From NCBI GenBank assembly GCA_036924085.1, contig JAVGWX010000013.1, forward strand, positions 48,261,965-48,325,964: a stretch of DNA of 64,000 nucleotides, read 5' to 3'. The notes under the pieces were generated by a model. That model was not told the DNA's origin. It searched no databases and saw only the letters and a program-made list of their open reading frames with translations. The stretch is from Ariolimax columbianus (Eukaryota; Mollusca; Gastropoda; Stylommatophora; Arionidae). Positions 8,001-64,000 of the stretch are shown here, piece by piece (position 1 is the first letter of the stretch; each line of letters begins with the position of its first letter). Both the position numbers and the translations under genes were made by a program.

Positions 8001-8375
8001 ACAATGCGTAGGTTTACTCTTTTGTGCGTGCTGAAAAGGACGTTAAATGGAGGGTTGTAGTAGCTTTCCTCACATCCCGAGCGTACTGATGAAGGTGGAC
8101 CGGGGTCCTCCAGGCGGTTGTGCTAGTCTGCCATGGAAACAGCCCGTTTCCATGGAGGGCTGCGAGGAAGCCAAGGTGAGGGTCTTGGCCAGTATGTTTT
8201 TGCCTGATCCTAACATATCTTATCAGCATGTTGTGCCTGACCTGACTAACACATCTTAGCAGTAGGTTGTGCCTGACCCTGACTAACATATCTTATCAGC
8301 ATGTTGCGCCTGACCCTGACTAACATATCTTATCAGCATGTAGTGCCTGACCAGACATTAGTCTTCCTCCCCAGT
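8000..8375 (+). mobile_element. Dispersed element with internal minisatellite (VNTR element), copy 1
   Basis: It begins GCGAATGCCCACAATGCGTA. A block around CTTTCCTCACATCCCGAGCG and GATGAAGGTGGACCG follows, then GAGGGTCTTGGCCA. Next come about four monomers of a CCTGACCCTGACTAACAT minisatellite and a conserved end, ACCAGACATTAGTCTTC. The same order is found at 58264-58592 with one monomer. Partial copies are at 60728-60900 and 47625-47780. It is non-coding and resembles minisatellite-bearing non-autonomous elements of molluscs, but the class is not shown. Confidence 0.7.
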
Positions 8376-10147: not shown

Positions 10148-10549
10148 TTCTTCTTCTTCTTCTTCTTCTTCTTCTTCTTCTTCTTCTTCTTCTTCTTCTT
10201 CGTTCTCAATCTCCCGCTACCAAACACTGAAAAGGCTTAAGTAGCAGAATGTAGTCAAGAGAACGGAATGCGTTGTGTCATACTTTACAGCTTGGCTGCG
10301 ATATTTGCACATTTCGGTCCAACACATCCGACTTCAGCAAGCATTTTTTGAGTACCGGGTTAGCATTCCCTCTTCGATCCCTTCTTTTTAGCCAGTCTGA
10401 CCTGCTGCAGCCTGTTATCCAGGATCACCGCGTGGAGGTGTAGAAGGGTCTTGGCAGCTGTGGTTCGCTGGCCCTGACGCTAGCAGTCAGCTATGGGTCG
10501 CTGACCACTGCAGCTCATGCGCTGTTCGGCATCTTGATCCCGGTAGCCC
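10148..10549 (-). mobile_element. SINE-A, full-length copy with (GAA)n tail
   Basis: Read on the minus strand, it starts CCGGGATCAAGATGCCGAAC and passes GGTCAGCGACCCATAGCTGA, CCTTCTACACCTCCACGCG and GAAGTCGGATGTGTTGGACC. It ends TGGTAGCGGGAGATTGAGAA followed by (GAA)n, seen as (TTC)n at 10148-10201. Copies lie at 14722, 20520, 42710, 56573, 57366, 57906 and 62835. I see no clear Pol III boxes, so 'SINE' is a working label for a short, dispersed, tailed non-coding repeat. Confidence 0.85.
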
Positions 10550-13110: not shown

Positions 13111-13169
13111 GATGTTTTTGTTCTTTTTATTAAATTTTATAACTTGTCTGCTGTCTCATTTCCTGGTAT

Positions 13170-13310
13170 ATTTTAACTGACCCCGACTAACATGTCTGAT
13201 CAGTATATTTTGACTGACATGACTAACATATCCGATCAGTTTATTTTCACTGACTCAGACTAACATGTCCGATCAGTATATTTTGTCTGACCAGACATTA
13301 GTATTCATTC
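13170..13310 (+). repeat. Dispersed 37/38-bp minisatellite, ~3.5 copies
   Basis: Monomers around CTAACATGTCCGATCAGTAT ending in CTGACCAGACATTAGTATTC. The same monomer and end occur in the VNTR elements at 8000-8375 and 58264-58592, and in the larger arrays at 33468 and 36275. Confidence 0.8.
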
Positions 13311-14721: not shown

Positions 14722-15047
14722 ATGCTGAGCAGCGCATGAGCTGGAGTGGTCAGCGACCCATAGCTGACTGCTAGCCTCAGGGCCAGCGAATCAAAGCTAC
14801 CAAGACCCTTCTACACCTCCACGCGGTGATGCTGGATAACAGGCTGCAATAGAGCATACTTTTTAAGGAGAGAGGCTCGAAGAGAGAATGCTAACCCGGT
14901 ACTTAAAAAAATTCCGGCTGAAGTCGGATGTGTTGGACCGAAAGGTGCAAATACCGCATTCAAGCTGTAAACTATAACATTCTCTGGGCTATATTCTGCT
15001 ACTTGCCCTTTTCAGGGTTTGGTAGCGAGAGATTGAGAACGAACAAA
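14722..15047 (+). mobile_element. SINE-A copy
   Basis: Same sequence order as 10148-10549 in + orientation: GATGCTGAGCAGCGCATGAG through GAAGTCGGATGTGTTGGACC to GGTAGCGAGAGATTGAGAAC. The tail is ACAAAAACAAGACAA in place of (GAA)n. It ends about 200 bp upstream of the exon at 15252. Confidence 0.85.
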
Positions 15048-15251
15048 AACAAGACAAGCCATGCAATATGCTGGTGCTAGAGCTTCTTTAATCTTTATCC
15101 AACCGTTACCGTTCTTTTGGCGCCATTTTTCTATTCGGTTTCTCTCGGCGAGTTCTATTCTGAGAGATGTACAATCCGCAGAAAACTTGTCCTCGCTTTC
15201 AGTCGTAATCTTTCTGTATTGATTCATTGGTCTAATTCATTACATTCACAG

Positions 15252-15417
15252 GTACAACACGGGACAAGGAAAACCAGCACTTTACTATGCGTCTTCATCA
15301 TCACTACTACCATCATCTGATAGCCCCACGGCATCATCTGCACCTCTAGTTGCCCAGGCGCAAGCGTATCTTGATCAGAACGTGAGGGCATACATGAGTC
15401 CGAAGAAATACTCGCAG
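15252..15417 (+). CDS. Candidate protein-coding exon 1 (internal), unknown protein
   Basis: The acceptor is TTACATTCACAG at 15240-15251. The donor is CAG|GTGAGT at 15415-15423, an excellent match to the U1 consensus. Between them, after one base completing a split codon, 55 codons are open: YNTGQGKPALYYASS, then a Ser/Pro-rich stretch (SSDSPTASSAPL), then QAYLDQNVRAYMSPKKYSQ. The exon starts in phase 1 and ends on a codon boundary. Triplet-repeat or transposon signatures are absent. The next exon candidate at 56080 starts in the matching phase. The minisatellite downstream is built from this exon's own donor region. I do not recognise the protein. An acidic-poor, Ser/Pro-rich linker or cytoplasmic tail is possible. 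Confidence 0.55.
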
Positions 15418-15453
15418 GTGAGTCAAATCATTATTTGAATAGCCTGTATTTAT

Positions 15454-15670
15454 ACACGGATGCAGTAGTCTAGAGGTGAAACTCGCTCGGCTTCACAATC
15501 GCATTGCATCGGGTACGAGTCCTGCTGGATGCGGGGGGATTGCACGCAATGTAGTCGGTTATCAATGTGCGGATAGTATTGGCAACCTACCGTGCCAAGA
15601 AACATATTACATCCAAATAGTTTGACAGCTGTAAGAAACTACGTTCTGCAAAGGACATGCTAATTACTTG
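15454..15670 (+). mobile_element. tRNA-derived SINE inserted in the 42-bp array
   Basis: The A-box-like TAGTCTAGAGG is followed by the B-box-like GGGTACGAGTCC, with CACAATCGCATTGCATC between them. It separates the donor-proximal first monomer (to about 15453) from the remaining monomers, which suggests it inserted into an existing array. End points are approximate. Confidence 0.5.
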
Positions 15671-15679
15671 TTTTTAATA

Positions 15680-16186
15680 TTTATACTCACGGAGCCAATT
15701 CGTACTTTTCATAGTTTGTATTTATATTCAGGGGAGCCAACTCGTTCTTTTAATAGTCTGTATTTATACTCAGATGAGCCAGCTCGTACTTTTCATAGTC
15801 TGTATTTATACTCAGGTGAGCCAACTCGTCCTTTTCATAGTCTGTATTTATACTCAGATGAGCCAGCTCGTACTTTTCATAGTCTGTATTTATACTCATG
15901 TGAACCAACTCGTTCTTTTTATAGTCTGTATTTATACTCAGGTGAGCCAACTCGTCCTTTTCATAGTCTGTATTTATACTCAGGTGAGCCAATTCGTTCC
16001 TTTTATAGTCTGTATTTATACTCAGGTGAGCCAACTCGTCCTTTTCATAGTCTGTATTTATACTCAGGTGAGCCAATTCGTTCTTTTTATAGTCTGTATT
16101 TATATTCAGGTGAGCCAACTCGTCCTTTTCATAGTCTGTATTTATACTCAGGTGAGCCAACTCATTCTTTTTATATGTTGTATTTG
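15680..16186 (+). repeat. 42-bp array of 5' splice site copies, 12 units
   Basis: Twelve units of about 42 bp, each with a C(A/T)(G/T)(A/G)TGA(G/A)CCAA core, then CTTTTCATAGTCTG and TATTTATACTCA. Seven units keep CAGGTGAG exactly. Compared with the exon donor region at 15413-15455, a monomer matches at about 34 of 43 positions without gaps. The array is therefore an amplified copy of the exon's 5' splice site and first intron bases. The open frames on both strands arise because 42 divides by three. Confidence 0.9.
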
Positions 16187-16429
16187 CAGAAAAAGAAAGA
16201 ACTCGTAATATTAATGGGAGCGTCAACTTATTATATAAATACTCCCTTTTTCGACATGAGTTTAAAACAAAATTCTGAATGAATTTTTATTTCTGTGTGA
16301 CTACATCAGTGTAATTGTTGTTTAAAATGTTGGTGTTTCTTTGATGAATTGTAAAATATATTTAAAATCTATTTGTGCTGGTCAACAGTCATTACGGACT
16401 TAAGTCTTTGACAATGATCATTATTCGTG
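16187..16429. other. Unassigned spacer
   Basis: AT-rich, nothing recognised. Confidence 0.5.
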
Positions 16430-17030
16430 TCGATTTCTTCCCCTGCGCCATCCTCAATGTTTACTTTGCTTGGTTCACGATTTTCCAACTCAATGGACAC
16501 GTGTGCCTGTTCGACTTGCGACTTAGAAGTGCCTCATTTCGCATATTTTTTTAATTTCCTTTTTTTTTGTACACACTTTGGAATGACATGTCCAGGATGC
16601 TTCATTTTATAGATCGCTGCTAACTCGACCTTAACATCTTTGTCCAAAAGGAGGTCACTGAACAACTTCAATATGCCACCTCTATCTCTTGCCAATGTCT
16701 CCACTGCGGGTGCCCATGACGTCAAAATATCAAATCTTCCATTCCCACAAACCATAGCATGGCCAGGACATTGGATCCACACAAGTTCCCTGAAGCTCGA
16801 GACCTCTACATCCACTATCCACTCATGCCCCATCCAGCCCGCCTGCTCCCTCCGAAGCAAGGATTGAGAGTCAGAGATGATTACAACCCTCATTAAAGAG
16901 GTCCCTGATAGCCACCTCAGAGCCGAAGTCACCGCCTCGATCTCCATTCTGAAACTGGACCTTGATGTCAAGTATACATCCCTCCTCTCAGCAACGACCC
17001 TGTCTCTCACTCAAACAAAGAGACCCTAAC
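16430..17030 (-). mobile_element. Jockey-like RNase H domain fragment
   Basis: The minus frame (17010-16534) reads SSFRMEIEAVTSALRWLSG, then VVIISDSQSLLRREQ, then LVWIQCPGHAMVCGNGRFD, then LLLDKDVKVELAA. This is the RNase H fold of non-LTR elements. The E in MEIEAV and the D in ISDSQSLL are catalytic positions, followed by W-x-x-PGH-x-G-x-x-GN. The NERAD aspartate position reads GNGRFD, so the last catalytic site is degraded. The first RNase H strand (YTDGS) is missing. The family is the same as 23680-24292. Confidence 0.75.
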
Positions 17031-17530
17031 CGACTTTCTTGCCACGAGACATATATCTGTTGGTATATGACAGCACCAAAAATCCTGAACATTTTCACTT
17101 ACTAGTTGTTTAACCTTGAGGTTTGCTTTCCCACTGCCTCAGTCTCTGCATTCACTCCCCCAGCGTGTCAATAAAAAGTCTATAATCGATCATTGACTAA
17201 GTCTTTTTATTTTAAAGATTGCCTCTGGTAGCTGGTCGTAATAGTTCTTCGTATATACAATTCTATCTGAAGAAGCGAACATGCCTTCTTTTCGCAGTAG
17301 TGCAACGCAAGCTTCTTCAATGCTCACCACTACTGACATCACAGTGTCAATCCCTACCTCGTTTCCCGGGCTGCTGCCTGTATTCAGATGGAAGACGAGT
17401 GCCTGAAATTCTATCTTGGTCATTATGTTGCGCCTAACCTTGACCTTGGTATCTACAAGTATAACCCGACATCCCGGGGTTTGGAACCCTCATAGAATTT
17501 ACGAGGTGAAGGTCATATGTGACATAAACA
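17031..17530. other. Unassigned, 77-codon antisense frame at 17190-17423
   Basis: Nothing recognised. The minus frame has no clear motif and could be chance. Confidence 0.4.
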
Positions 17531-19494: not shown

Positions 19495-19600
19495 TCATAA
19501 ACTTGATGAGTGTGACGTGTCAGCCTTGGTTTAACAAATCCTAAACTTGATTAGCTTAACGTGTCAGTCCTGGTTTAACAATTTCTAAACTTGATGAAGT
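19495..19600 (-). repeat. 44-bp minisatellite, ~2.3 copies
   Basis: The reverse complement carries TTGGTTTAACAATTCCTA-like and GACGTGACAGTC-like blocks, matching the larger array at 32465-32905 in the opposite orientation. Confidence 0.75.
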
Positions 19601-20519: not shown

Positions 20520-21055
20520 GATCTCAGCACGACATTTATGGAATCAGGTCTGCCTTCCTTCCTCGATCTCTAATCTGTTAGCCAGACTGCGTAGTCACAG
20601 TCTGTTTTCAGGGACATCACTTAAAGATGGATTATTGTTTTTGGTCAATTGTAGGTCACTGACTCTGATGCAAACAGGAATCTACGAGTCGCTGACTATG
20701 ATGCAGACAGCAAGGTATGCGTCACAGACTCTGATGCAAGCAGCCAGCTATGAGTCACCGACTCTGATGCTAGCAACAAGCTATGAGTCACTGACTCTGA
20801 TGCAAACAACCATCTACAAGTCAATGACTCTGATGCAAGCAGGCAGCTACGAGTCACTGACTCTGACGCAAGCAGCCAACTATGAGTCACTGGCCATTAT
20901 GCAAACTTCCAGCTGCGAGTCGCTGACTATGATGCAGACAGCCAGGTATGAGTCACTGACTCTGATGCAAGCAGCCAGCTATGAGTCACTGACTCTGATG
21001 CAAGCAGCCAGCTTCGAGTCTCTGTCTGTTGTCAGCTCATTCACTATTACGTCTT
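20520..21055 (-). mobile_element. SINE-A copy expanded by a 33-bp array
   Basis: Positions 20555-20650 align with the antisense SINE-A consensus (CTCGATC, TTAGCCAG, CCTGTTATCCAGG-like, AGGTGTAG-like). The element then enters the 33-bp array, whose unit matches the SINE-A segment around GACGCTAGCAGTCAGCTATG. The copy ends at 21025-21055. Confidence 0.7.
20654..21020 (-). repeat. 33-bp array grown from SINE-A, 11 copies
   Basis: Units contain CTCTGATGCAAGCAGCCAGC then TATGAGTCACTGA. In intact SINE-A the matching segment is CCCTGACGCTAGCAGTCAGC then TATGGGTCGCTGA, already followed by a partial second unit. That partial repeat could have seeded the array. The period is divisible by three, so a 184-codon ORF is a by-product. 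Confidence 0.85.
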
Positions 21056-21520: not shown

Positions 21521-22414
21521 TTATGTCCCAAATTGGATCTACCCATGTGGATGACTGTAGTCCTTCTGTCCTAGTTCCCCATGTGTGTTGAAACATCCTT
21601 GCTGCCTTTCCCAGCATTTGCTGATCTTATTTAGGTCACAACGTGGTATTAATCCGCGCAAGCTGCGTTAACAGCCCTGGCTTTTACAGCCGTTGTCTCA
21701 CTGATAGCGCTATCCTGATTACCATGATTTTCATCTCAAGAGCGGAACAAAATGGCGAAAATCTTTGACCTTTAACGGCAGCTTCGAATGAGTTTGAGAA
21801 ATGTAACGTCTTTAGAGAACCCGTCCGAGGTTTTATCGCTATGGAGAACTCAGTTCATCGGCGTTGTCTGTCTCTAGTGGGCCTGGCGCAATTTCGGAGA
21901 AGAAATAAAAGCGAAAATCAACAGCCATTGTGACCAGTGGGTCATTAAAACCCTAGCAGTGGCGGCAAAGTGACTCCCTGTCTGGGGGCAGGATTATGTG
22001 AGATGTGGGGGTCACATGCTAACCCCGCTTAAAGGGAACATTCTTTTCGTTTTTCGGCGCATACTGTTAATTTTTATAACGTTTCTTATGTGTAGCAAAA
22101 TAGTTGATGTGTGACGTAATCGTTCTTGGCTGTGACGTGATTAATCATCAGTTAAAATGTTGTCTATGACGTCATGAAGTTAACAGGACGTACGGATAGT
22201 TCCCAGTGCAAATAAACACAGATAGGTTTGGCCAATGTCTGTTTATGAGAATCGACGTTACTGCAATCTGGGAATACCTATAGGTGCTCAGTCTACTTAG
22301 CAAATGGTGCAGGATCTGGATGATGATGGTCCCTATAGCTCTCTGGTTGTACTCTCCTGCTCCGTTCTATCATGCGCCCCACTCCGATCGAACATCGTTT
22401 AATGTCAAAACTGT
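21521..22414. other. Unassigned spacer
   Basis: No coding frame, repeat or RNA gene recognised in about 890 bp. Confidence 0.5.
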
Positions 22415-23482
22415 GTAGTCTGTGGATTGTTGATTCATTTATTGTGCGGAAATATTATAACGGTCCTTGAACACCTGTATAACAAGGCGTCTAGTGCAGT
22501 TCTTGTGAATGGGAGGCGAGGAGACTGGTTTCGCACATCAGTTGGTGTGAGACAGGGGTGTACACTCTCTCCAACTCTTTTCAATATATTCCTTGAAGGA
22601 ATTATGAGTGAGGCACTTGGAGGTCACGTTGGTTCTGTCAAGATAGGGGGCCGAACGATTACCAACCTTCGTTTTGCAGATGATATCGACAGGTTGGCGG
22701 GTTCAGAAGCAGAACTCCAGGAATGGGTCAGAAGGCTCGATGAAACAGCTCTTGACTATGGTATGGAGATAAACGCTGGAAAGACAAAATTAATGACCAA
22801 TAACGCTACGGGCTTCAAGAGCAAGATAAAAGCTAACGGTCAGGAACTCGAAGTGGTTGACCGTTTTAAATATCTTTGGTCGATTGTCAGTGATGAAGGA
22901 TCAAAATGTGAAGTATTGGCCAGAATAGCACAGACAATAGCGGCGCTTGCACGGCTTAACAAAATCTGGCAAGATAAACGGTTAGCACTACGCACGAAAA
23001 TCAGATTAATGCGTACACTGGTCCTGTCAATATTCCTCTATGCGTGTGAGACATGGACAGTTACAGCTGACCTTCAACGAAGGATATAGGCCTTGGAGAT
23101 GAGATGTTTCCGAAAACTTGTAAACGTCACGTACAAAGATCGAGATACAAACGAGGAAATACGAAATAGAATTACAACGGCAATAGGGTCTTTCGAAGAT
23201 CTTTTGGCAACTGTCAAAAGAAGGAAACTCACTTGGTACGGTTACATATCGAGATCAAATGGTCTTGCAAATACAATTCTCCACGAGAAGGTGCATGGCA
23301 GACGACGAAGAGACCGGCCCAAAAAGAGATGGGAGGACAACATAAAAGAATGGACCAGTCTCCGACCGGAAGAGTCACAGGCAGCGGCATGTGACAGAGA
23401 GGGATGGCGTGGAGTTGTGAGGATGTCTTCATGTGTGCCCCAACGACCTCACCGGTTACGGGATGACCTGACCTGACCTGAC
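22415..23482 (+). mobile_element. LINE reverse transcriptase, near-intact 3' half with one stop
   Basis: A + frame runs from about 22427 to 23476, broken only by TAG at 23087-23089 (from CAG in the relative at 49438). It shows VGVRQGCTLSPTLFNIFLEG (RT motif B), RFADDIDRLAG with the catalytic FADD at 22673-22684, IKANGQELEVVDRFKYL, SIFLYACETWTV, EMRCFRKLVNVTYKDRDTNE, KLTWYGYISRSNGLA and RPKKRWEDNIKEWT. This matches the palm, thumb and C-terminus of an abundant invertebrate RTE-like LINE. The endonuclease and RT fingers are missing (5' truncation). The 3' end is a short (GACCT)n repeat at 23461-23482. Confidence 0.88.
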
Positions 23483-27689: not shown

Positions 27690-27960
27690 AGGAAGATCCA
27701 AGTCATACATTGACAGGGTAGACAAACTTGCCCAAGATGAGCAGTCAAAGATCTTCAGAAAGCGACACTGCAGACTCAAGTCCAACCTCCACAGAATGGG
27801 CCATTGTTGAGCACCCAACCAAATATCAGAATATATCCTGTGGACTGGCCTTACCTATACAGACAAAAAGAGAAGCAGTCTAACCCTGGTGAGAGACCAT
27901 GTTCAAAAAGATGCAGGGGACGGGCGAACACCTGAAACGCAGTCTCCTTCATGGACCTAC
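27690..27960 (+). mobile_element. Jockey-like element C-terminal fragment
   Basis: A + frame reads RHCRLKSNLHRMGHC, then SEYILWTGLTYTDKKRSS. It resembles the G-H-C-R-L-x-S-x-L-x-RMG and EHIL-x-x-C-P-x-Y-x-D-K-R block at the C-terminus of RNase H-bearing LINEs, with the cysteines lost. Low-copy-like and diverged. Confidence 0.5.
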
Positions 27961-32464: not shown

Positions 32465-32905
32465 AGTCACTTTATGCTCATCAAGTGTAGGAATTGTTAA
32501 ACCAAGAGTGTCACGTCATGTTCATCAAGTATAGGAATTGTTAAACCAAGAGTGTCACGTCATGTTCATCAAGTGTAGGAATTGTTAAACCAAGAGTGCC
32601 ACGTCATGTTCATCAAGTATAGGAATTGTTAAACCAAGACTGTCACGGCATGTTCATAAAGTGTAGGAATTGTTAAACGAAGACTGGCACGTCATGTTCA
32701 TCAAGTGTAGGAATTGTTAAACCAAGACTACCACGTCATGCTCAGCAAATTTTGAATTGTTAAACTAAGACTGTCACGTCATGCTCATCATTTGTAGGAA
32801 TTGTTAAACCAAGATTGTCACGTCCTTATTAACCAAATTTAGAATTATTAAGCCAAGACTGCCACGCCATGCTCATCAAGTGTAGGAATTGTTAAACAAC
32901 ACTGG
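32465..32905 (+). repeat. 44-bp minisatellite, ~10 copies
   Basis: Units of CATCAAGTGTAGGAATTGTT, then AAACCAAGAGTGTCACGTCA plus a few bases. Divergence rises toward the right. A two-copy array of the same monomer in reverse is at 19495-19600. Confidence 0.93.
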
Positions 32906-33467: not shown

Positions 33468-34191
33468 GGTCAGGTAAAACATACTGATTGGACATGTTAG
33501 CCAGGGTCAGGTAAAACATACTGATTGGACATGTTAGCCAGGGTCAGGTAAAACATACTGATTTGACATGTTAGCCAGGGTCAGGTAAAACATACTGATT
33601 GGACATGTTAGTCACGGTCAGGTGAAATATACTGATTGGACATGTTAGCCAGGGTCAGGTAAAACATACTGATTGGACATGTTAGCCAGGGTCAGGTAAA
33701 ACATACTGATTGGACATGTTAGCCAGGGTCAGGTAAAACATACTCATTGGACACGTTAGCCAGGGTCAGGTAAAACATACTGATTGGACATGTTAGCCAG
33801 GGTCAGGTAAAACATACTGATTGGACATGTTAGCCAGAGTCAGGTAAAACATACTGATTGGACATGTTAGCCAGGGTCAAGTGAAATATACTGATTGGAC
33901 ATGTTAGCCAGGGTCAGGTAAAACATACTGATTGGACATGTTAGCCAGGGTCAGGTAAAACATACTGATTGGACATGTTAGTCAGGGTCAGGTGAAATAT
34001 ACTGATTGGACATGTTAGCCAGGGTCAGGTAAAACATACTGATTGGACATGTTAGCCAGGGTCAGGTAAAACATACTGATTGGACATGTTAGCCAGGGTC
34101 AGGTAAAACATACTCATTGGACACGTTAGCCAGGGTCAGGTAAAACATACTGATTGGACATGTTAGCCAGGGTCAGGTAAAACATACTGAT
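33468..34191 (-). repeat. 37-bp array, ~19.6 copies
   Basis: Units of CAGGTAAAACATACTGATTG, then GACATGTTAGCCAGGGT. The reverse complement (TGGCTAACATGTCCAATCAG, then TATGTTTTACCTGACCC) is the dispersed minisatellite seen at 8215, 13170, 36275 and 58545. Two blocks of about seven units containing a CTCATTGGACACGTT variant repeat within the array, indicating a higher-order duplication. Confidence 0.95.
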
Positions 34192-36265: not shown

Positions 36266-36274
36266 TAAGAAAGT

Positions 36275-36612
36275 CTGATCAACATGTTTCACCTGACCCT
36301 GACAAATATAATCTGATCAGTATGTTTCACCTGACCCTGACAAATATAATCTGATCAGTATGTTTCACCTGACCCTGACAAATATAATCTGATCAGTATG
36401 TTTCACCTGACCCTGACAAATATAATCTGATCAGTATGTTTCACCTGTCCCTGACTAACATAATCTGATCAGTATGTCCCACCTGACCCTGACTAACATA
36501 GTCTGATCAGTATGGTTCAAATGACACTGACTAACATAATCTGATCAGTATGTCCCACCTGACCCTGACTAACATAGTCTGATCAGTATGTTTCACCTGA
36601 CCCTGACAAATA
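36275..36612 (+). repeat. 38-bp minisatellite, ~9 copies
   Basis: Units of TGATCAGTATGTTTCACCTG, then ACCCTGACAAATATAATC. Same monomer family as 33468-34191, opposite orientation, one base longer. It starts directly at the truncated end of the preceding LINE. Confidence 0.93.
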
Positions 36613-36814
36613 TGAACGAGTTATTGACTTATATATACTTGAACAAATTGACTGAATTACATCTGAGTTTCTAAGATCTGTTAAGTTCTACACTCTTCAT
36701 TCCACAGCCCTCGGAGGATGTGACCTCTACAACACCACACTCCTTCTATCATTCCATCACAATTATGTCTCAAGTTTACGCTGTGATTCGTTAGGTGTTT
36801 TCATATACATTATG

Positions 36815-42084: not shown

Positions 42085-42470
42085 TAACGTCCTTATACTG
42101 TTTTAGAAGACTCTGCAGAGTCTGTGTACAACCAGTTTCTTTTACATTTCCTTGATAAAAAAAACAAAAAACAAATGCGCATCTAATCTATTCTTGAATG
42201 CATTAACTGACCCTGCCTTCACTATTTCCTGTGGAAATGCATTCAAAGCTTTCACCGATCTCTGACTAAAAACATATTTCTTGATATCTTATGTGTACCT
42301 TTATTTAGTTAATGTGTTGTTGTGCAATCTTGTTCTTGTATGCGACTGTATTTTGAGAAAGAAAATTTGGTACACCCTAATTTATCTTCTCCGTTGATTA
42401 TCTAATGAGCCTGAATTAAGTCACCTCGAATTCTTCTCTGTTCTAGACAATGTAGACCGGTAAACAGGTA
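42085..42470 (-). mobile_element. CR1/L2-like LINE C-terminus
   Basis: The minus strand encodes KYVFSQRSVKALNAFPQEIV, then KAGSVNAFKNRLDAH, followed by a conserved non-coding end (CTCTGCAGAGTCTTCTAAAA in reverse). F-x-x-R-V-x-x-x-W-N-x-L-P-x-x-V-V and V-x-x-F-K-x-x-L-D are the final motifs of CR1/L2 RTs. The W-N of that motif is L-N here. Upstream codons up to 42470 are frameshifted. Confidence 0.75.
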
Positions 42471-42709: not shown

Positions 42710-43067
42710 CAAGGTGCTGAGCAGCGCATGAGCTGCAGTGGTCAGCGACCCATAGCTGACTGCTAGCGTCAGGGCTAGCGAACCAGAGCTGCCAAGACCC
42801 TTCTACACCACCACGCAGTGATCCTGGATAACATGCTGCAGCAGAGCAGGCTGGCTAAGGAGAAGATATCGAAGAGGAAATGCTAACTCGGTACTCAAAA
42901 AATGTTTGCTGAAGTCGGATGTGTTGGGCCGAAAGGTGCAAATATCGCAGCCAAGCTGTAAACTACGACACAACGCATTCCGTTCTCTGGACTACATTCT
43001 GCTTCTCAAGCCCTTTCAGGGTTTGGTAGTGGGAGATTGAAAACGAACGAAGAAGAAGAAGAATAAG
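42710..43067 (+). mobile_element. SINE-A copy with (GAA)n tail
   Basis: Full-length, from GGGATCAAGGTGCTGAGCAG to GGTAGTGGGAGATTGAAAAC and GAAGAAGAAGAAGAATAAG. About 85-90 percent identical to 10148-10549 by eye. Confidence 0.88.
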
Positions 43068-57542: not shown

Positions 57543-57905
57543 AATAACATTTCAATACAAATTTATAGCGTTCACGATGTGTGCGCGAGTCAATGCCCAC
57601 TAATGTTCATTTTAAATTACATTATCTATATCATACATTTATCTTTCTGGATCACTTTGACCGGTACTCGACAATCCGTACTCTCTTATGTTTATTTAAA
57701 TCCTATGAAAATTAGAAGACGATCGTATTCCAGAGTAAATATTGGTTGTAAGTTCAATTGAACTGTTGACTTGCCTCATTGAGAGGGTTGGCACTGCATT
57801 ACTTACAAGTTTTGTTATATTGGGCTCAACAGCTGAGATTTGTATTCTGAGTTCTGGCGACGTTTTTCAAACGGGTTCTATACTTATTCTTGGCTTGCCT
57901 TGGCT
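57543..57905. other. Unassigned spacer
   Basis: Nothing recognised. Confidence 0.5.
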
Positions 57906-58085
57906 TTGTTCGTTCTCAATCTCCCGCTACCAAATCCCGACACGGGCCTAAGTAGCAGAATGTAGTCCAGAGAACGGAATGCGTTGTGTCGTAGTTTAGG
58001 GTTTGAATGCGATATTTGCACCTTTCGGTCCAATACATCCGACTTCAGCAAGCATTTTTTGAGTACAGGGTTAGCATTCTGAAGA
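57906..58085 (-). mobile_element. SINE-A copy, 3' half
   Basis: Antisense order CGTTCTCAATCTCCCGCTAC, AGTAGCAGAATGTAGTCCAG, CACCTTTCGGTCCAATACAT, AAGCATTTTTTGAGTACAGG. The 5' half is missing and the tail is TTGGCTTTG instead of (TTC)n. Confidence 0.83.
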
Positions 58086-62834: not shown

Positions 62835-64000
62835 CATTCTCAATCTCCCACTACCAAACCTTGAACGTTCTCAATCTCCCACTACCAAACCTTGAACGTT
62901 CTCAATCTCCCACTACCAAACCTTGAACGTTCTCAATCTCCCACTACCAAACCTTGAACGTTCTCAATCTCCCACTACCAAACCTTGAACGTTCTCAATC
63001 TCCCACTACCAAACCTTGAACGTTCTCAATCTCCCACTACCAAACCTTGAACGTTCTCAATCTCCCACTACCAAACCTTGAACGTTCTCAATCTCCCACT
63101 ACCAAACCTTGAACGTTCTCAATCTCCCACTACCAAACCTTGAACGTTCTCAATCTCCCACTACCAAACCTTGAACGTTCTCAATCTCCCACTACCAAAC
63201 CTTGAACGTTCTCAATCTCCCACTACCAAGCCCTGAACGTTCTCAATCTCCCACTACCAAACCTTGAACGTTCTCAATCTCCCACTACCAAACCATGAAC
63301 GTTCTCAATCTCCCACTACCAAACCTTGAACGTTCTCAATCTCCCACTACCAAGCCCTGAACGTTCTCAATCTCCCACTACCAAACCTTGAACGTTCTCA
63401 ATCTCCCACTACCAAGCCCTGAACGTTCTCAATCTCCCACTACCAAGCCCTGAACGTTCTCAATCTCCCACTACCAAGCCCTGAACGTTCTCAATCTCCC
63501 ACTACCAAGCCCTGAACGTTCTCAATCTCCCACTACCAAGCCCTGAACGTTCTCAATCTCCCACTACCAAACCTTGAACGTTCTCAATCTCCCACTATCA
63601 AACCTTGAACGTTCTCAATCTCCCACTACCAAGCCCTGAACGTTCTCAATCTCCCACTACCAAACCTTGAACGTTCTCAATCTCCCACTACCAAACCTTG
63701 AACGTTCTCAATCTCCCACTATCAAACCTTGAACGTTCTCAATCTCCCACTATCAAACCTTGAACGTTCTCAATCTCCCACTACCAAACCTTGAACGTTC
63801 TCAATCTCCCACTACCAAACCTTAAACGTTCTCAATCTCCCACTACCAAACCTTGAACGTTCTCAATCTCCCACTACCAAACCTTGAACGTTCCCAATCT
63901 CCCACTACCAAGCCCTGAACGTTCTCAATCTCCCACTACCAAACCTTGAACGTTCTCAATCTCCCACTACCAAGCCCTGAACGTTCTCAATCTCCCACTA
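62835..64000 (-). repeat. 31-bp array grown from the SINE-A tail, at least 37 copies
   Basis: Units of CGTTCTCAATCTCCCACTAC, then CAAACCTTGAA. The main variant has AAGCCCTGAA, and rarer ones have CTATCAAAC. Directly left of it is CCCTTCTTCTTTGTTC, the SINE-A (TTC)n tail. The unit equals the last 31 bases of SINE-A (GTTCTCAATCTCCCGCTACC then AAAC). The array runs past the end of the window. Confidence 0.95.

Follow-up and report, generated by a model that had tools for sequence, protein, structure and literature searches.

Minisatellites at known and candidate intron-exon boundaries

Tandem duplication of intron-exon boundaries has been described in the lancelet, where the resulting minisatellite-like arrays, called mirages, are reported from Adh3, troponin C, the globins BflGb6 and BflGb9, and PGBD5 (PMC3087553, PMC3902484). 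According to these accounts, unit length is 10-72 bp for Adh3 and 150-160 bp for the globins, many units carry AG/GT, and the arrays vary in length and are spliced normally (PMC3087553, PMC3902484). In BflGb6, the units at the edges of the cluster are described as excluded from homogenisation, and mirages have been proposed as a source of new introns (PMC3087553). The minisatellite of human IFI6 (6-16; Turri et al. 1995) is reported to supply multiple splice donors, and splicing makes use of two of its downstream units (PMC4526556). Tandem duplication of an AGGT-containing segment can also create introns (Rogers 1989 and Hellsten 2011, as described in PMC4974935 and PMC3443670); multi-copy intron gain with 24-bp repeats is reported in fission yeast (PMC4974935), and internal tandem repeats in human are reported both to give rise to introns and to activate cryptic splice sites (PMC2812944). 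Lastly, the ratchet points of recursive splicing are defined by a juxtaposed acceptor and donor (PMC8605326).

Here we describe a 12-copy array of a 42-bp unit lying downstream of a related donor-like site, at the end of a candidate exon, in a 64-kb stretch of DNA (the whole stretch analysed, hereafter the window). The known system that appears to fit it best is the lancelet mirage, which would give the phenomenon precedents. Three features of mirages are found at the locus: a tandem array (42 bp, 12.1 copies), the retention of AG/GT by many, not all, of the units (7 of 12), and, as in BflGb6, divergence of the units at the array edges, the donor-like site itself (unit 0) and the last unit having mean identities to the other copies of 0.73 and 0.77, respectively, and the 11 units in between 0.82-0.91. 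The mirages differ in that their genes are known and their transcripts were examined, whereas the gene here is a candidate only; in addition, the exonic share of the unit here is 3-10 bp, and a SINE-like insert splits the array.

As in IFI6, donor-bearing units stand in tandem at the end of a (candidate) exon. However, the IFI6 units are reported in use, whereas the present donors are candidates read from the sequence alone, with a unit of 42 bp. The unit of the IFI6 minisatellite is reportedly short, about 12 bp. As in introns formed by AGGT duplication, the repeated segments could potentially serve as both 5' and 3' splice sites, but the copies here perhaps run past the candidate acceptor, and the CAG ending at 16189 is followed by A. 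Seven units resemble ratchet points in juxtaposing an acceptor-like and a donor-like signal (scores 6.66-6.88 and 11.83, respectively), although the copies here are in tandem, 42 nt apart, with no sign of use.

The array and its relation to the donor-like site

TRF reports a 42-bp period in 12.1 copies at 15678-16185 of the + strand; unit alignment places the array at 15678-16189, with a GT-like position at 15690 + 42n up to 16152. The array begins 260 bp after 15418, the GT of the donor-like site CAG|GTGAGT, and the unit consensus phased on that GT is GTGAGCCAACTCGTTCTTTTCATAGTCTGTATTTATACTCAG. Aligned without gaps, the 43-mer surrounding the donor (15413-15455) matches the 12 units at 26, 34, 32, 34, 32, 33, 34, 34, 34, 34, 33 and 31 of 43 positions, and the array consensus at 35 of 43. 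Its best matches elsewhere in the window are 26 (+ strand, 16213) and 27 (- strand, 48553), and the maxima in 100 order-2 Markov strands of 64 kb each are 23-27. A 54-mer composed of the unit's last 12 bases and one whole unit matches the donor region at 40 of 54 positions; the runner-up in the window (31 of 54, at 42308) equals the top of the range given by 20 order-1 Markov strands (maxima 27-31) and was rejected as a second match. BLASTN aligns the donor region with the array at 81% over 48 columns (E 1.7e-7). By this homology, the donor-like site and the array share ancestry, and the donor region (15408-15459, + strand) can be counted as unit 0.

The homology of unit 0 to the array extends to 15455 from 15415 without a gap, or from 15408 with a 2-base gap, so that its exon-side share is 3 bp or 10 bp, respectively; the exonic part by itself is not significant in an exon-only comparison. 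A single genome gives no polarity to the copying, which may have run from the donor into the array or the other way round. No array or locus resembling the 42-bp unit occurs elsewhere in the 64-kb window, and a search of viral contigs with a 23-base piece of the unit, which was uninformative, found none.

The motif CAGGTGAG is intact in 7 of the 12 units, first at 15813-15820 (GT at 15816, + strand) and then with GT at 15942, 15984, 16026, 16068, 16110 and 16152. The remaining five, at 15690, 15732, 15774, 15858 and 15900, are without AG or GT; they occupy 15690-15941 of the + strand, with the intact unit at 15816 among them. Scoring each unit as a 5' splice site, as the original prediction had proposed, gives 11.83 for all seven intact units, second on the + strand to 12.98 at 15418. 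These and the other splice scores come from simple weight matrices with vertebrate consensus frequencies, which were not trained on this species. In its description of the array the original prediction is borne out: twelve tandem 42-bp units 260 bp downstream, which align to 15413-15455 without gaps and, at 26-34 of 43, largely above the chance maxima, seven of them with the motif perfectly kept.

The units at both edges are the most diverged, suggesting that homogenisation does not reach the edges. Across 9 of the 12 units (15774-16110), copies two apart are more alike than neighbours (permutation p 0.0014), and this alternating 84-bp pattern indicates that later growth of the array probably proceeded in 84-bp steps. 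The last unit (16152-16189, + strand) is 38 bp long, and its terminal TTTGCAG could serve as a 3' splice site. A further relic unit may be present at 16217-16256 of the + strand, where the sequence resembles the donor unit more than it does the array consensus. Its score against the donor, 14, is reached by 0.16% of 2508 segments of the real window, a post hoc value that is one of four comparisons and concerns a place noticed first and then tested. Against the consensus, its score is reached by 7.8% of segments, and the intervals 16190-16260 and 16190-16230 give 1.5-22%, varying with scoring and null. Because of this range and the order of noticing and testing, we regard the relic as suggestive only. 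A comparable relic on the left, over the acceptor of the candidate exon (15213-15251), was rejected as not significant (5.7% of segments).

A SINE-like insert within the array

Units 0 and 1 are separated by a SINE-like insert (15461-15677, + strand) containing an A-box-like TAGTCTAGAGG at 15466 and a B-box-like GGTACGAGTCC at 15512, both found with motif patterns. Its flanks resemble a target-site duplication. The left copy, TATTTATA--CACGGA, lies at 15447-15460, and the right copy, at 15678-15693, overlaps the start of unit 1; they have TATTTATA(CT)CACGGA in common at 14 of 16 columns. Within 15400-16200, the CACGGA variant occurs only at 15455 and 15688, that is, in the two flanks, and the likeness of the flanks thus exceeds ordinary unit-to-unit similarity. 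When the flanks are joined, the distance between the donor GT and unit 1 becomes 41 bp, which differs from the period by a single base. Given this empty-site spacing and the duplication of a private variant, unit 0 and the other units most likely formed one array before the insertion; the array would then probably be the older element and the insert the later one.

The insert is probably a mobile element, as it combines A- and B-box-like motifs with a target-site duplication, which are traits of tRNA-derived SINEs. No second copy occurs in the 64-kb window, ARAGORN reports no tRNA in the insert, and Rfam returns no match at E<=10. The tRNA-like SINE that the original prediction placed between the first monomer and the rest is accordingly one that we infer from the motifs and the duplication: its position, boxes and duplication hold up, and recognition by ARAGORN or Rfam and a second copy in the window do not accompany them.

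The candidate exon and its surroundings

The candidate exon (15252-15417, + strand) is an open frame in phase 0 at its 3' end, with the predicted peptide YNTGQGK...MSPKKYSQ. Its acceptor scores 7.45, a value reached by 106 + strand sites, itself included. The exon has a three-base periodicity (chi2 16.9, shuffle p 0.008) at a level reached by 8% of random segments of the window; for comparison, 35 overlapping pieces of the window's reverse transcriptase frame average 9.6, with a maximum of 14.6. A serine-rich stretch may contribute to the periodicity. Of 30 random strands, 10 contain an open frame with the same summed splice score; the real window offers two exon candidates of this kind per strand, both of those on the + strand using donor 15417. 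Since every random strand contains 1-6 donors of at least 11.8, a strong donor by itself is not rare; open stretches of at least 71 aa, the length of the exon's own, number 94 on the + strand and 95 on the - strand.

No relative of the exon peptide was found in the PDB, or in Pfam with the peptide taken alone or spliced to the candidate next exon. Protein searches in contexts of about 126-402 aa and 1100-3500 aa yielded 5 and 35 candidates, none within E 10, and those in a context of 385-1225 aa yielded 11, none within E 1; among viral contigs, 55 stretches match the search pattern, none encoding a relative. The collections are described as covering prokaryotes, phages and plasmids along with viral contigs; as the protein database is perhaps poor in animals, the missing homologue is a weak negative. 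The original prediction had taken 15252-15417 as an exon and the first monomer as its real splice site. The exon is unproven, its splice signals and frame being within chance (10 of 30) and no homologue having been found. As for the splice site, the homology to the units stands, and the signals plus open frame are at chance level, with no relative among the collections searched.

No host gene is named by Pfam in the three + frames of 2.0-51.7 kb or the three - frames of 12-22 kb, where reverse transcriptase and a weak RNase H are the only coding domains credited. The reverse transcriptase matches (+ strand, 22403-23476 and about 51.2-51.7 kb) are probably decayed retrotransposons. The RNase H match (- strand, about 16828-17040; E 0.046, under the curated cut-off) falls over an open frame at 16534-17010, just 3' of the array, which is probably part of a retrotransposon. 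Matches to DUF6451, DUF3915, DUF3545, the Dickkopf C-subdomain, the prion octapeptide and RPA_interact_N were below curated cut-offs and were disregarded, as was FliX in three frames near 33.5-33.9 kb, which lies inside a minisatellite (one frame scoring 25.7 bits, against a cut-off of 25).

Splice signals of the units

At the seven intact unit boundaries, the donor signal of 11.83 coincides with an acceptor signal of 6.66-6.88. This acceptor signal comes near those of the exon (7.45) and of the candidate site at 16190 (7.22), though scores of this order are commonplace: 7.45, 7.22 and 6.66 are reached by 106, 122 and 184 + strand sites, respectively. Acceptor-donor pairs at the units' strength number 0-2 per random strand and occur at least once in 9 of 30 strands. 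The top sum in the window, 20.65, belongs to a juxtaposed acceptor/donor-like point at 27854 on the - strand, compared with 18.5-18.7 for the units.

A whole unit consists of 14 open codons in the exon's phase (VSQLVLFIVCIYTQ). Translation past 15417 meets an in-frame TGA at 15436-15438 (+ strand), the seventh intronic codon, so any unit donor used in place of 15418 would entail read-through into this stop. Among the 11 full units (of 12), the splice core has 7 changes in 88 positions and the rest of the unit 20 in 374 (Fisher p 0.32), and preferential conservation or decay of the core was rejected. Because the core changes as often as the rest and 5 of 12 units are without AG or GT, selection for or against decoys is invisible. 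The original prediction had seen the units as potential decoys, buffers or alternative donors; the splice core is neither more nor less variable than its surroundings, and a decoy, buffering or ladder role would be inference only.

Origin of the array

We give roughly even weight to the possibility that the locus is a mirage-type minisatellite, grown from a donor-bearing segment of about 42 bp beside an exon. This account brings together the homology, the insert inside the array, the divergence of the edges, the 84-bp pattern and the seven intact donor motifs, all of which the analysis supports. The segment with the donor CAG|GTGAGT (GT 15418) would have undergone tandem duplication and further amplification, for which slippage or unequal exchange is the probable mechanism and 84-bp steps the probable later mode, giving at least 13 copies 3' of the putative exon. 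A tRNA-like SINE would subsequently have inserted between units 0 and 1, and the copies at the exon edge and at the far edge would have been left out of homogenisation and become divergent. Were the exon real, normal splicing would use the donor at 15418, which comes first and scores highest, and the downstream donors would be passengers removed with the intron; at most, they would give rare isoforms terminated by the TGA in the seventh intronic codon. As the units of other minisatellites recur at several loci in the window, a dispersed source for the 42-bp unit is also possible.

A real exon would make this a mirage with a readable order of events, the array and then the SINE-like insert. In that case, the notion that minisatellites in animal genes can arise from splice boundaries, a route to new introns that has been proposed for mirages (PMC3087553), would gain support, and the locus would serve as a natural experiment on the choice of the first among eight near-equal donors.

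It is also possible, though somewhat less likely, that no gene is present and that the array is one of many genomic minisatellites, with a donor-like motif in its unit by chance. Unit 0 would then be the diverged left edge of the array, and the exon a chance open frame before the motif. The abundance of minisatellites in the window (33 arrays with a period of at least 20 bp, some with units common to several loci) is in keeping with this explanation, but a strong consensus donor (11.8) occurs in only this one of the 33, the consensus donor of the other 32 reaching 9.0 at most. Likewise, the exon's signals at chance level and its lack of a detected homologue have to be set against a motif that is the best donor of the + strand and ends an open frame with an acceptor upstream, and against the exon's three-base periodicity (shuffle p 0.008). 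Reverse transcriptase and weak RNase H as the only credited domains in the scanned frames, and a relic unit perhaps lying inside the supposed next exon, also favour the absence of a gene. If the exon is not real, the locus serves as a warning that minisatellite edges can mimic splice sites in gene prediction.

Intron gain or replacement according to the model of Rogers, with a CAGGT-containing segment multiplied into an intron, strikes us as improbable. The GT of the first copy would be the 5' splice site and the CAG of the last copy (16187-16189) the 3' splice site, and the array plus the SINE would make up a 772-bp intron (15418-16189). CAG is indeed present at both array ends, acceptor- and donor-like signals are juxtaposed in the unit, and the open frame continues from 15417 into a candidate next exon, from 16190 in frame to a TGA at 16280-16282 (+ strand). 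However, 16190 makes a weak acceptor (122 + strand sites, counting this one, score at least its 7.22), 16189 is followed by A where a copied AGGT would give GT, and the relic unit perhaps continues beyond 16190. Multi-copy precedents are reported in fission yeast (PMC4974935), and one is suspected in an amphioxus globin intron (PMC3087553).

That the unit boundaries act as ratchet points (acceptor then donor) or alternative donors, with copy number tuning splicing efficiency or isoforms, seems very improbable. In its favour, seven units pair a donor of 11.83 with an acceptor of 6.66-6.88 at one point, each unit spans 14 codons that are open and share the phase of the exon, and repeat units of human IFI6 are reported to serve as donors (PMC4526556). 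Against it, AG or GT is lost in 5 of 12 units, preferential conservation of the splice core is not seen, equally strong points arise in 9 of 30 random strands, 27854 (- strand) outscores every unit, and skipping the first donor leads to the stop at 15436-15438. In addition, splicing is reportedly undisturbed by the mirages of lancelets (PMC3087553, PMC3902484), and ratchet points are described from long introns (PMC8605326). We attach equally little credence to a self-similar arrangement, in which a donor would be regenerated whenever 15418 was spliced to an intact unit, and the reading frame would be kept by whole units that were retained. Were such a ladder to exist, unit amplification would be tolerated by the spliceosome, and copy number could be converted into a longer or shorter intron, into recursive splicing steps or into an in-frame exon of variable size.

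Other repeats in the window

The 33 separate arrays in 64 kb represent a density that, judged on this window alone, looks high. One unit family of 37-38 bp is found in both orientations in the minisatellites at 8210-8352, 13166-13296, 33468-34191 and 36274-36613, and makes up a dispersed minisatellite family within the 64 kb. Two 44-bp arrays (19498-19597 and 32466-32904) have a common unit in opposite orientation. Upstream of the candidate exon, at 15005-15061, lies a dispersed sequence with copies at 10188-10235, 57891-57947 and 43011-43059; the array at the end of the window (62837-64000; 31 bp, 37 copies) is 87-92% like part of this sequence. Finally, a 33-bp array of 11 copies (20655-21024) is located inside a 188-aa open frame.
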